Below, piece after piece: positions 28,807 to 48,786 of a stretch of 64,000 nucleotides of DNA. The stretch is from Bradyrhizobium sp. CB1717. GTDB taxonomy: Bacteria > Pseudomonadota > Alphaproteobacteria > Rhizobiales > Xanthobacteraceae. A program made the position numbers and the translations under genes. Where the stretch lies: the NCBI RefSeq assembly GCF_029714325.1, contig NZ_CP121666.1:3844001-3908000 (forward strand), written 5' to 3'. Below the pieces are notes generated by a model. It made no database searches, had not been told where the DNA came from, and saw only the letters and a list, made by a program, of their open reading frames with translations. How positions within the stretch are numbered: the stretch's first letter is position 1; each line of letters starts with the position of its first letter.

Positions 28807-28844
28807 CCTCGTCCTTCGAGACGACCGCTCCGCGGTCTCCTCAG
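28807..28844. repeat. REP palindrome interrupted by IS110 element (left part)
   Basis: CCTCGTCCTTCGAGACG followed by ACCGCTCCGCGGTCTCCTCAG is most of a Bradyrhizobium-type REP unit. Its missing end, GATGAGG, is found at 29972-29978 beyond the IS element. Joining the two restores CTCCTCAGGATGAGG. Confidence 0.85.
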
Positions 28845-28859
28845 CGACTGTGTTCTTCG

Positions 28860-29792
28860 TCAAGCGGGTTGCCATTGTTTTTGGTCCCTGAGCATGGCGT
28901 TGAGGATGGTGAGGACTTTGCGAGCGACGGCGATGAGGGCCACCATCTTCGGCTTCCCGGCGATCAGCAGGCGTTGATAGAAGAGCTTGAGCTGCGGATG
29001 GTGTCGGCTGGCCGAGAGAGCGGCCATGTAGAGCCCGGCGCGCAGTGCGGCTCGCCCGCCGCCGATCATGCTCTTGCCCTTCCAGCGGCCGGATTGGCGG
29101 GTGAACGGAGCAAGGCCGGCGAGGCTTGCGATCTGGCGCCGATTGAGGGTGCCGAGCTCGGGCACCTCGGCCAGGAAGGTGCGGGCGAGCGTGTTGCTTA
29201 CACCCGGAAAGCTCACCAGCAACTCCTCCTTGGCGCGCCAGACCGGCGAACCGCGCACCAGCGTGTCGATGTCGTTGTCGATCTCCAGCAGCTCCTTCTC
29301 GAGGACCTTGATGTGGCGGGCAAGGCTCTTGCGAACGCGGACATTCTCGGCCCGCTTCTCGCGCTGGCGCTCGGCAACGATCATCTCGATGATCTGCCGT
29401 CGGCGGCTGACCAGTTCGGCCAGCAGCCGGGCTTCCTGATCTGGCATGGCACGCGGCGTCGGCTTCACCGCCTCGACAAACCGCGCGATGACTGCCGCAT
29501 CGATCGGATCGGTCTTGGCGCGCTGGCCAACGGCCTGCGCGAAGTGCCGGATTTGGGCCGGATTGACCACCACCAGCGGCAGTTGGGCGCCGGCCAGCGC
29601 CGCCGCGACAATGGTCTCGAAGCCGCCCGTCGCTTCCACTGCAATCAGCGTTGGCGAACAGGCCTGCAGACGAGCAACAAGGTCTTCCAAGCCTTTGCCG
29701 TCACGCGCCACGGCAAAGGCTTCCCCGCTCGGACGCAAATGCACGTCCAGCCGGTCCTTCGATACATCAATGCCAATATAGATCGCGTCCAT
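28860..29792 (-). CDS. IS110-family transposase (DEDD recombinase)
   Basis: This 310-residue protein starts at ATG 29792 (MDAIYIGIDVSKDRLDVHLR), with AAGG about 11 bases upstream. The RuvC-like DEDD domain shows Asp9 in GIDVSK, Glu53 in VEATGG, and Asp95 and Asp98 in KTDPIDA. A coiled middle part (residues about 125-185) follows, then the Transposase_20 domain (SFPGVSNTLARTFLAEVPELG, IASLAGLAPFTRQSG, GGGRAALRAGLYMAALSASRHHP). Ser234 and Ser241 are the candidates for the catalytic serine. It is full length with no frameshift, so it may be active. Family members cut and join DNA guided by a bridge RNA read from the adjacent non-coding end. Confidence 0.95.
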   Translation of the reverse strand: MDAIYIGIDVSKDRLDVHLRPSGEAFAVARDGKGLEDLVARLQACSPTLIAVEATGGFETIVAAALAGAQLPLVVVNPAQIRHFAQAVGQRAKTDPIDAAVIARFVEAVKPTPRAMPDQEARLLAELVSRRRQIIEMIVAERQREKRAENVRVRKSLARHIKVLEKELLEIDNDIDTLVRGSPVWRAKEELLVSFPGVSNTLARTFLAEVPELGTLNRRQIASLAGLAPFTRQSGRWKGKSMIGGGRAALRAGLYMAALSASRHHPQLKLFYQRLLIAGKPKMVALIAVARKVLTILNAMLRDQKQWQPA

Positions 29793-29794
29793 CT

Positions 29795-29969
29795 GCACCC
29801 ATCCTTGCGCAATCGGGCTCGCCAGGCGGCCCTCGCGACTGTTCGGGTTCAATGGAACAACGGACGGGGCGCCGCGCTGAGGCTCGGGCTTCAAAGCCCT
29901 GGGATGAGGCGGTCTCCCGTCCGCTACCGCACCGGACACTCTATCCGATCCAGTGAGTCGAAACTTACA
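29795..29969 (-). ncRNA. Putative bridge RNA of the IS110 element
   Basis: Read on the minus strand, the upstream non-coding end folds into three parts. A 5' hairpin has CACTGGA (29949-29955) paired with TCCGGTG (29930-29936). A target loop has outer stem CGGACGGG/CCCGTCCG (29916-29923 with 29861-29868) and inner hairpin GGGCT-TTGA-AGCCC (29886-29899). Its left side holds GCCTCATCC (29902-29910), identical to the left target. Its right side holds CCTCAG (29877-29882), the complement of CTGAGG on the right target. A donor loop holds ACAGTCGC (29835-29842), identical to the element's downstream end, and CAAG (29804-29807), the complement of CTTG at its other end. The donor loop's inner hairpin is 29815-29832. 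Layout and size match the described IS621 bridge RNA. Confidence 0.82.
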
Positions 29970-29971
29970 AG

Positions 29972-29978
29972 GATGAGG
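29972..29978. repeat. REP palindrome, displaced right end
   Basis: GATGAGG completes the REP unit whose larger part lies at 28807-28844. The sequence that follows, CTGATCAGCATCGCGG, is flanking DNA. Confidence 0.75.
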
Positions 29979-30023: not shown

Positions 30024-30067
30024 CCTCATCCTGGGGAGCCCGCTTAAAGCGGGCGTCTCGAAGGATG
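30024..30067. repeat. Second REP unit beside the IS element
   Basis: CCTCATCCTGGGGAG, then GCCCGCTTAAAGCGGGC, then GTCTCGAAGGATG form an intact unit in opposite orientation to the interrupted one. It contains CCTCATC-CT-GGGG, one mismatch away from the target the bridge RNA would read. Confidence 0.8.
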
Positions 30068-47460: not shown

Positions 47461-48786
47461 ATGCCTCAAGTCTCTCGTCGCCGCCACCTTCAGCATTTGT
47501 CGGGTGTGTTCGGAGCCGCCGCGCTGTCGGGGTGGCCGAAATCCGCGTCGGCTTCAGAGCCTGACATTCCGCCGGAGGGCATCGGCAAGGGCATCCAGCA
47601 CGTCTCCTACAGCGACATCGGCGGCCGGCCCGACAGCGTGCAGGTGATGTTCAACCGGCAGCACGTCTATGTCGGGCACATGTTCAGCGACGGCGTGACG
47701 ATCCTGGACGCCTCCGATCCGCGTGCGCTGAAGCCGGTCAATTTCTTCACCGCGGGGCAATACACCCGCACCCATCATTTGCAGGCGGCGGAGGACCTGC
47801 TGCTGGTCGCCAACGGCGCCAACATTGTCGCGATGCAGTCCTACGACAACATGCGCGGCTATTTCGAGAACACGCTGGTCGACAGCATCACCAAGGCCAA
47901 GAAATTCCGTTCCGGCCTGTCGATCCACGACATCTCGAAACCAGGCGAGATGCGCGAGATCGCGTTCCTCGAGATGCCCGGCTTCGGCATCAACCGGCTG
48001 TGGTGGCCCGGCGGCCGCTATGCCTATGTGTCGGCGCATTTCGAAGGCTTCACCGACCACATCCTGTGCGTGGTCGATCTCAAGACCATCACGAAGCCGG
48101 AGATCGTCGCGAAATGGTGGCTGCCCGGCATGAACCGCGCGGCCGGCGAGCCGCCGACGCCCAAGGGCAAGCGCTTCGCGCTTCATCACATGATCACGGC
48201 GGGCGATCGCGGCTATGCGGCCTGGCGCGATGGCGGCTTCACCATCCACGACATCAGCGATCCCGCCAATCCAAAGCTGCTGTCCCACATCAACTGGTCG
48301 CCGCCCTTCGCCGGCGGGACGCATACACCGCTGCCGCTGCCCAAGCGACAGCTTGCGATCGTCGCGGACGAAGCCAACGCGGAGAAATGCGCCAAGGGCC
48401 TGTTCCACACCTTCGTGCTCGACGTGCGCGCGCCGGAGAATCCGGTGCCGATCGCAACGCTGCCGACCCCGCGCGAGCGTGATTTCTGCACGAACGGCAC
48501 CTTTGGTCCGCATAATCTCCACGAGAACCGCCCGGGCTCGTTCCAGAGCGAGGAGACGATCTTCGCGACCTACAACAATGCCGGCGTCAGAGTGTTCGAC
48601 GTCAAGGATGCTTTCGCACCGAAGGAGATCGCCTACTGGGTGCCGCCGACGCCGAAGAAGCTCATCGACCCCCGCCCGAATGTCGCCCTCGCGGCCAAGA
48701 CCTGTGACGCCTACGTCCGGCCCGACGGGCTGATGTTCGTCTCCGACTGGAACGCCGGCATGCACGTGCTGCAATATCAGGGGTGA
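47461..48786 (+). CDS. Exported LVIVD-repeat beta-propeller-like protein
   Basis: This 441-residue protein starts at ATG 47461 behind GGGGGGA. A signal of Tat-like type (SRRRHLQHLSGVFGAAALSG) ends near SASAS. The mature part has LVIVD-like repeats: FSDGVTILDASDPRALKPV, LSIHDISKPGEMREIAF, FTIHDISDPANPKLLSH, VRVFDVKDAFAPKEIAY, often flanked by conserved His (THHLQAAED, ALHHMITAGDRG, GPHNLHENRPG). These may bind a metal. It follows the CoA synthetase gene by 77 bases and may be co-transcribed. Function unknown. Confidence 0.85.
   Translation: MPQVSRRRHLQHLSGVFGAAALSGWPKSASASEPDIPPEGIGKGIQHVSYSDIGGRPDSVQVMFNRQHVYVGHMFSDGVTILDASDPRALKPVNFFTAGQYTRTHHLQAAEDLLLVANGANIVAMQSYDNMRGYFENTLVDSITKAKKFRSGLSIHDISKPGEMREIAFLEMPGFGINRLWWPGGRYAYVSAHFEGFTDHILCVVDLKTITKPEIVAKWWLPGMNRAAGEPPTPKGKRFALHHMITAGDRGYAAWRDGGFTIHDISDPANPKLLSHINWSPPFAGGTHTPLPLPKRQLAIVADEANAEKCAKGLFHTFVLDVRAPENPVPIATLPTPRERDFCTNGTFGPHNLHENRPGSFQSEETIFATYNNAGVRVFDVKDAFAPKEIAYWVPPTPKKLIDPRPNVALAAKTCDAYVRPDGLMFVSDWNAGMHVLQYQG

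Follow-up and report, generated by a model that had tools for sequence, protein, structure and literature searches.

In a 64,000-nucleotide (nt) stretch of Bradyrhizobium sp. CB1717 (contig NZ_CP121666.1, positions 3,844,001 to 3,908,000; hereafter the window) lies an insertion sequence of the IS110 group whose left end encodes a predicted bridge RNA of the IS621 type. Very probably this is a recently active element whose bridge RNA pairs both with a repetitive extragenic palindromic (REP) target and with the element's own circle junction. The ends of the element, six insertions, an empty site, the RNA structure, the matches of guides to target and donor, and covariation among relatives are all covered by sequence evidence, while transcription, RNA binding, the circular form and the cleavage chemistry are presumed by analogy with IS621. 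An initial annotation of the same DNA, made by eye, had proposed a probably self-programmed recombinase with a REP target. That is still the best reading, with programming and activity suggested by covariation and by homology to IS621 and ISCro4. The annotation under-called the element, as a donor-binding loop and handshake bases are also present.

The element, its insertions and its recombinase

As inserted, the element is 1127 bp long and occupies 28845..29971 on the minus strand, beginning with the target core CT on the left and stopping just short of the right-hand core. These boundaries were fixed by six full copies at different sites in the window's genome (one contig, 9.23 Mb). Five of the copies are identical over all 1127 bp and the remaining one has two differences, and recent spread of the element in this genome is therefore likely. 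The left flanks read CCTCATC in three copies, CGTCATC in two and CGTCACC in one, and the right side is CT-GAGG in all six. The CT core is found at both ends, and the six copies together with the empty site limit the target duplication to CT. In the window, the left target half and core occupy 29970..29978 (CCTCATC at 29972-29978, CT at 29970-29971) and the core with the right target half occupies 28839..28844 (CT at 28843-28844, GAGG at 28839-28842), both on the minus strand. The element's right end is ACAGTCG, followed by the core CT at 28843-28844. Its non-coding ends are unequal, with 179 nt upstream of the gene on the left and 15 nt on the right. Matches to the left end were found in 14 of 265 genomes of the genus, the window's own included.

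The target had originally been reconstructed by joining the REP halves on the two sides of the element, and this reconstruction is borne out by relatives in which the site is empty. Sixty genomes were queried with the neighbouring gene, 38 matched (including the window's own), and we inspected 29 loci outside the window's genome. Between the same two convergent genes, loci L143 and L153 carry an uninterrupted CTCCTCAGGATGAGG, L141 shows a single difference from it, and in L140 the repeat is altered. The intact repeat was not seen at the other 25 of the 29 loci, eight of which were covered to 300 bases, and one of which (L162) runs off its contig.

The recombinase gene (28860..29792, minus strand) encodes 310 amino acids with a DEDD RuvC-like domain (Pfam DEDD_Tnp_IS110) and a Transposase_20 domain containing the conserved serine. 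The protein aligns with the IS621 chain 8wt6_A over residues 4-302 (E 4.5e-34, 121.6 bits). D9, E53, D95, D98 and S234, aligned by eye with a chain offset of two residues, correspond to D11, E60, D102, D105 and S241, the catalytic residues of IS621 as given in PMC11208158. Domains and ends alike identify the element, on sequence, as an IS110-group insertion sequence.

A predicted bridge RNA in the left end

No Rfam family reached its gathering score in the window, and we therefore built our own covariance model. Left ends from relatives, with the window's own excluded, gave an RNA alignment of 28 types and 188 columns, and 14 of these types, from elements with at most 78% protein identity to the window's, were used for the model (R1). 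This held-out model found the RNA at exactly 29793-29971 on the minus strand (179 nt, 173.6 bits, E 1.2e-49). The interval first proposed, 29795..29969, is to be corrected to these limits. Across the window's genome, where 150 of 4946 first-look candidates were scored, the model gave six matches at E<=0.001, and these were the six copies. A plus-strand match at 29861-29923 (20.2 bits) was taken as a mirror of the palindromic target stem, as were two weak minus-strand matches in L177 and L179, and a match at 48298 (E 2.4) was taken as chance.

The predicted RNA contains two modules of stem, internal loop and hairpin with covarying stems, and the support is strong for the target-binding one. This module (29861..29923) has an outer stem, an internal loop and an apical hairpin. 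The stem read by eye, CGGACGGG (29916-29923) with CCCGTCCG (29861-29868), and the hairpin GGGCT-TTGA-AGCCC (29886-29899) are all present on the minus strand as described, and 10 of the 13 outer-stem pairs are changed on both sides among the 28 relatives. The donor-binding module (29797..29848, minus strand) consists of an outer stem ACCC/GGGU, in which two of four pairs show changes on both sides, and an inner hairpin GGGC/GCCC that is nearly invariant among relatives and shows such changes in none of its four pairs. A 5' stem-loop at 29931..29949 (minus strand) is weak across relatives, with a partial consensus, and a scan at a 75% pairing threshold gave no helix there.

For the structure that we named on the 28-type alignment, 95.9% of cells are paired and 14 of 28 pairs have changes on both sides. 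None of 500 shuffles scored as high on any of five structure measures. When the partner was shifted by one to three columns, pairing fell to 37-50%, a comparison biased towards the named structure, since it had been drawn from this very alignment. Compared with shuffles, the single-sequence fold had a moderate advantage (z -2.5, equalled by 4 of 200); it pairs the donor guide with the left end, bases that we interpret instead as engaged in RNA-DNA pairing. Two relatives have unusual left ends. In L082, from a metagenome-assembled genome (70% protein identity; left end 135 nt), the RNA is without the whole target-binding loop, and the locus may be dead, wrongly assembled, or an element that has no target guides. 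L048 is degraded, with a protein match that stops early and a right end that was not found, and its left end is still recognisable.

Guides, targets and the proposed mechanism

The target loop carries CCTCATC on its left side and CCTCAG on its right. The left target guide, CCUCAUC followed by CC opposite the core (29901..29909, minus strand), fits the left target at 7/7 positions in copies L001-L003 and at 6, 5 and 6 of 7 in L004-L006. The loop string GCCTCATCC had been described as identical to the target over nine bases. The string is there, and the guide provides the seven target bases and the first core base; its leading G has a counterpart before the target in one of six copies (L001). 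The right target guide CCUCAG (29877..29882, minus strand) is complementary to CT-GAGG at 6/6 positions in all six copies, as had been noted for this copy. The placement of the guides had also been judged unlikely to arise by chance, and indeed none of 6565 CT sites on both strands of the window has at least 5/7 left and 4/4 right matches. In the 9.23 Mb genome, a 13-mer predicted from the guides was found at 327 places on both strands with up to two mismatches, against 110 for the pattern written backwards. Such matches amount to roughly 2 per 100,000 positions; each of the six insertions has a joined site with zero to two mismatches.

We compared guides and targets across relatives at fixed RNA positions, with the left guide scored for identity to the left target and the right guide for complementarity to the core and right target. 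Of 92 loci with a protein match, 20 (truncated, degraded or distant) gave no boundary by end motifs, and the other 72 represent 48 distinct insertions, of which L046, lacking a right flank, and L082, lacking a target loop, were set aside, leaving 46 for guide counts. The boundary motifs are donor-end motifs that require C as the first left-core base; they favour this donor and would miss TT cores. Averaged per guide type (22 types), the fit to an element's own target was 5.03/7 on the left and 3.90/4 on the right, against 3.33 and 1.73 for the targets of other elements, and the observed sums were reached in none of 20,000 permutations. Because related elements share guide and target, the permutation test was repeated on subsets. 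Restricted to the 11 guide types with a right-guide ending other than TCAG, the test gave 2 and 0 of 20,000; with 16 representatives, which we chose after seeing the table, it gave 0 and 0. Twelve plasmid-borne relatives (53-63% identity), 12 of the first 16 listed among 1190 matching records, were fetched afterwards, and all 12 contain the RNA. Their 11 guide types fit their own sites at 4.09/7 and 4.64/5 and those of others at 2.69 and 2.99 (1 and 0 of 20,000); for L174 and L178, each with two possible right ends, we took the first. Of the 1190 plasmid records with a relative, 1188 are below 60% identity; Klebsiella (635) and Escherichia (354) account for most of the records.

Copies that share their loops thus sit at one type of target, and where the loops of a relative differ, its target differs to match. 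Neither of the two outcomes that the initial annotation had set as refuting it was observed. The arrangement that the first reading borrowed from the IS621 model, identical on the left and complementary on the right, recurs among these relatives. Plasmid relatives L171, L173 and L177 have a TT left core together with a TT guide; contrary to this agreement, L106 and L107 carry the guide TT where the core is CT. In L005 and L079 the right-target match extends up to seven bases past the core, and some of this may be chance.

The left donor guide ACAGUCGC (29835..29842, minus strand) is identical to the right end ACAGTCG plus the core C, and its 8-nt extent is that of the IS621 left donor guide as described in PMC11208158. 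The right donor guide UUGCGCAAG (29804..29812, minus strand) would pair with CTTGTAA through four standard pairs, a G opposite T, two bulged bases and two U-A pairs, an arrangement like that of the IS621 right donor guide, for which PMC11208158 describes a non-canonical G161:T12 pair and two flipped-out bases. The weight of the donor match comes from its position, which is that of IS621, and from its change together with the right end in relatives. L179 and L180 have ACAGCCG in both the right end and the donor guide. Among 14 distant relatives (36-52% identity), a free search for the longest string shared by the two ends returned a donor-type string in nine: ACAGTTG in six, ACGGATAC in two and ACAGTCGC in one. 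In L032 the longest string was another one, and L027, L085, L086 and L118 did not show the donor-type string. For the ACGGATAC strings, 3 and 6 of 200 shuffles were as good. In L117 and L119 (38-42% identity) the right and left ends share ACGGATAC, as would be expected had the donor and its guide changed together.

Handshake bases, a role taken from IS621 (PMC11208158), were also identified, and all four positions pair in the window. The target-loop bases CG (29875..29876, minus strand) are complementary to donor positions 7 and 6, with the first pairing in 45 of 47 insertions and the second in 26. The donor-loop bases GA (29802..29803, minus strand) are complementary to target positions 7 and 6, with the first pairing in all 47 insertions and the second in 28. 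The pairing bases are nearly constant across insertions and give no covariation.

IS110 circles are reported to rebuild a promoter at the junction of right and left ends (PMC11208160). In a circular form of this element, the -35-like TTGACG of the right end (28858..28863, minus strand) would stand 17 nt from a candidate -10-like TAAGTT in the left end (29962..29967, minus strand), and the joined ends may form a junction promoter with a weak -10. Of 48 insertions, 45 have TTGAC at this 17-nt distance from TAA; in one it lies elsewhere and in two it is absent. The mechanism that we propose would thus begin with an excised circle in which the meeting of right and left ends creates a promoter, from which a bridge RNA of about 164-179 nt (the range reflecting a presumed start site) would be made and bound by the recombinase. 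The target loop would pair with both strands of a CGTC- or CCTC-tagged REP palindrome (CCTCATC-CT-GAGG) and the donor loop with the circle junction ACAGTCG-CT-TGTAA, and top-strand exchange next to CT would insert the element with no duplication beyond CT.

Several observations weigh against this mechanism. In the window, the second core base faces a C rather than a T in the guide, and the two do not pair. Outer left-target positions are often mismatched across the set, L016 and L022 have a poor left fit (3/7 and 4/7), and in L106 it is 2/7 unless read one base shifted. Occupancy of perfect CCTC sites (3/13) as against CGTC sites (2/37) indicates no significant preference (p 0.10). By free search, the 8-base left donor match of the window is not significant, with 34 of 200 shuffles as good. 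Finally, TAAGTT is what we take to be a weak match to the sigma-70 -10 consensus.

The likeness of loop and target could instead be a coincidence, or a REP fragment left over in the left end, with the protein choosing the target. The loop arms and the REP do share the letters CCTCAT and CCTCAG, and both are GC-rich and palindromic. However, other guide types, read at these RNA positions, fit targets of quite another sequence, permuting targets among guide types reaches the observed fit in only 0-2 of 20,000 cases, and the donor loop obeys the same rule with a sequence that is not a REP, so that we regard this explanation as very improbable. We consider it only marginally more probable that the RNA mainly regulates translation of the transposase, as small RNAs do for ISPpu9. 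The RNA extends up to the start codon, but such a function would leave the guide-target and donor-guide matches across relatives unexplained, and it could be an added role rather than a replacement. The pair of Pfam domains would equally suit an element of the IS1111 group with its RNA at the right end. This is the least credible of the alternatives, and is contradicted by the layout, in which the RNA lies upstream of the gene in the 179-nt left end and a structured RNA would not fit the 15-nt right non-coding end; the left guide also precedes the right guide, which is the IS110 order according to PMC11187229. An IS110-group element guided by its own bridge RNA is thus the reading that we retain.

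Related elements, host repeats and retargeting

The element belongs to an already known kind, that of IS110 elements with an IS621-type bridge RNA, and the guides of its relatives match other repeats. It resembles the published descriptions of IS621, an IS110-group element of E. coli, in its domains, catalytic residues, left-end RNA with two internal loops, CT core, 8-nt left donor guide, bulged right donor guide and REP targets. It differs from IS621 in that the protein homology is remote and the target repeat and target guides are different; the long right-target matches of L005 and L079 are a further difference. The ISCro4 transposase (PDB 9t56) is likewise homologous over residues 4-302 (E 2.2e-33). 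Closer relatives are ISMex17 and ISMno7, IS110-like elements on Methylobacteriaceae plasmids (L175 and L180), with 53-57% protein identity and a bridge RNA found by the same model; their target guides are different, and L180 (annotated ISMno7) and L179 have the donor ACAGCCG with a matching guide. ISPpu9, ISPpu10 and ISRm19 are IS110-family elements that insert in the REP repeats of their hosts (PMC1525189), with hosts and repeats different from those here, and are likened by published description only. Insertion of IS110 elements in REPs has thus long been known (PMC1525189), natural reprogramming was reported earlier for ISEc11 and ISXne4 (PMC11187229), and covariation over thousands of IS110s has been reported (PMC11208160). 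No earlier account of this element was found in the titles and abstract openings of the literature searched, a body with most subscription papers and preprints outside it, and the supplement of PMC11208160 may include the element.

The target repeat, CNTCATCCTGAGG, is found at 49 places in the window's genome (10 with CCTC, 35 with CGTC and 4 with CATC), against 0 for a backwards control. The strands of these 49 repeats are uneven, with 13 forward and 36 reverse. A second, unoccupied repeat of this family, CCTCATCCTGGGG, lies beside the occupied one, at 30025-30037 give or take about a base on the plus strand (G000:C1:3874024-3874036), and has one right-half mismatch. Section 6 of PMC3733652 describes CGTC-tagged REPs of alphaproteobacteria as a palindromic repeat with a terminal CGTC, often TGTC or CCTC, followed by AT. 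By this text definition, the consensus figure aside, CNTCATCCTGAGG repeats are probable CGTC-tagged REPs; the targets CGTCATC and CCTCATC agree with it, and TGTCACC and CGTCACC agree in the tag only. As described in the text of PMC3733652 in 2013, these REPs were not associated with transposase genes.

Repeats were counted in ten genomes that we chose. In G1205, which belongs to another family of the same class, the guides of the element match CGTCGTC-CT-GACG, and the genome has 35 places of CGTCRTCCTGACG and one of CNTCATCCTGAGG, against 0 and 49 in the window's genome; G565 has 3 and 150. The contrast between G1205 and the window's genome supports, as one clear case in sequence, the view that guides follow the repeats of the host. 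The window's repeat type is present 36 times in G140 and 18 times in G096, yet their elements L018 and L022 are guided to CTCCCC and CTCACCC sites. Simple tracking of host repeats is also countered by the window's own genome, in which the guide fits the rarer CCTC form. This alphaproteobacterial IS110 clade may represent a natural, replicated retargeting experiment, in which guides drift after the palindromes of their hosts and repeat families form a reservoir of RNA-addressable sites. We rate this tracking lower because G140 and G096 do not fit it, and put it at slightly under an even chance.

Bridge RNAs are candidate tools for programmable insertion, and this clade offers over 30 natural guide sets whose genomic sites are known (22 + 11 types), some of them with changed core or donor bases. 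Such sets could be used to derive pairing rules without a screen, including which positions tolerate mismatches and how far right-target pairing extends. For the biology of the repeats, the finding links an RNA-guided element to a class of bacterial repeats that is well known and, if the tracking of host repeats is true, CGTC-tagged REPs would be a regular target of such an element.
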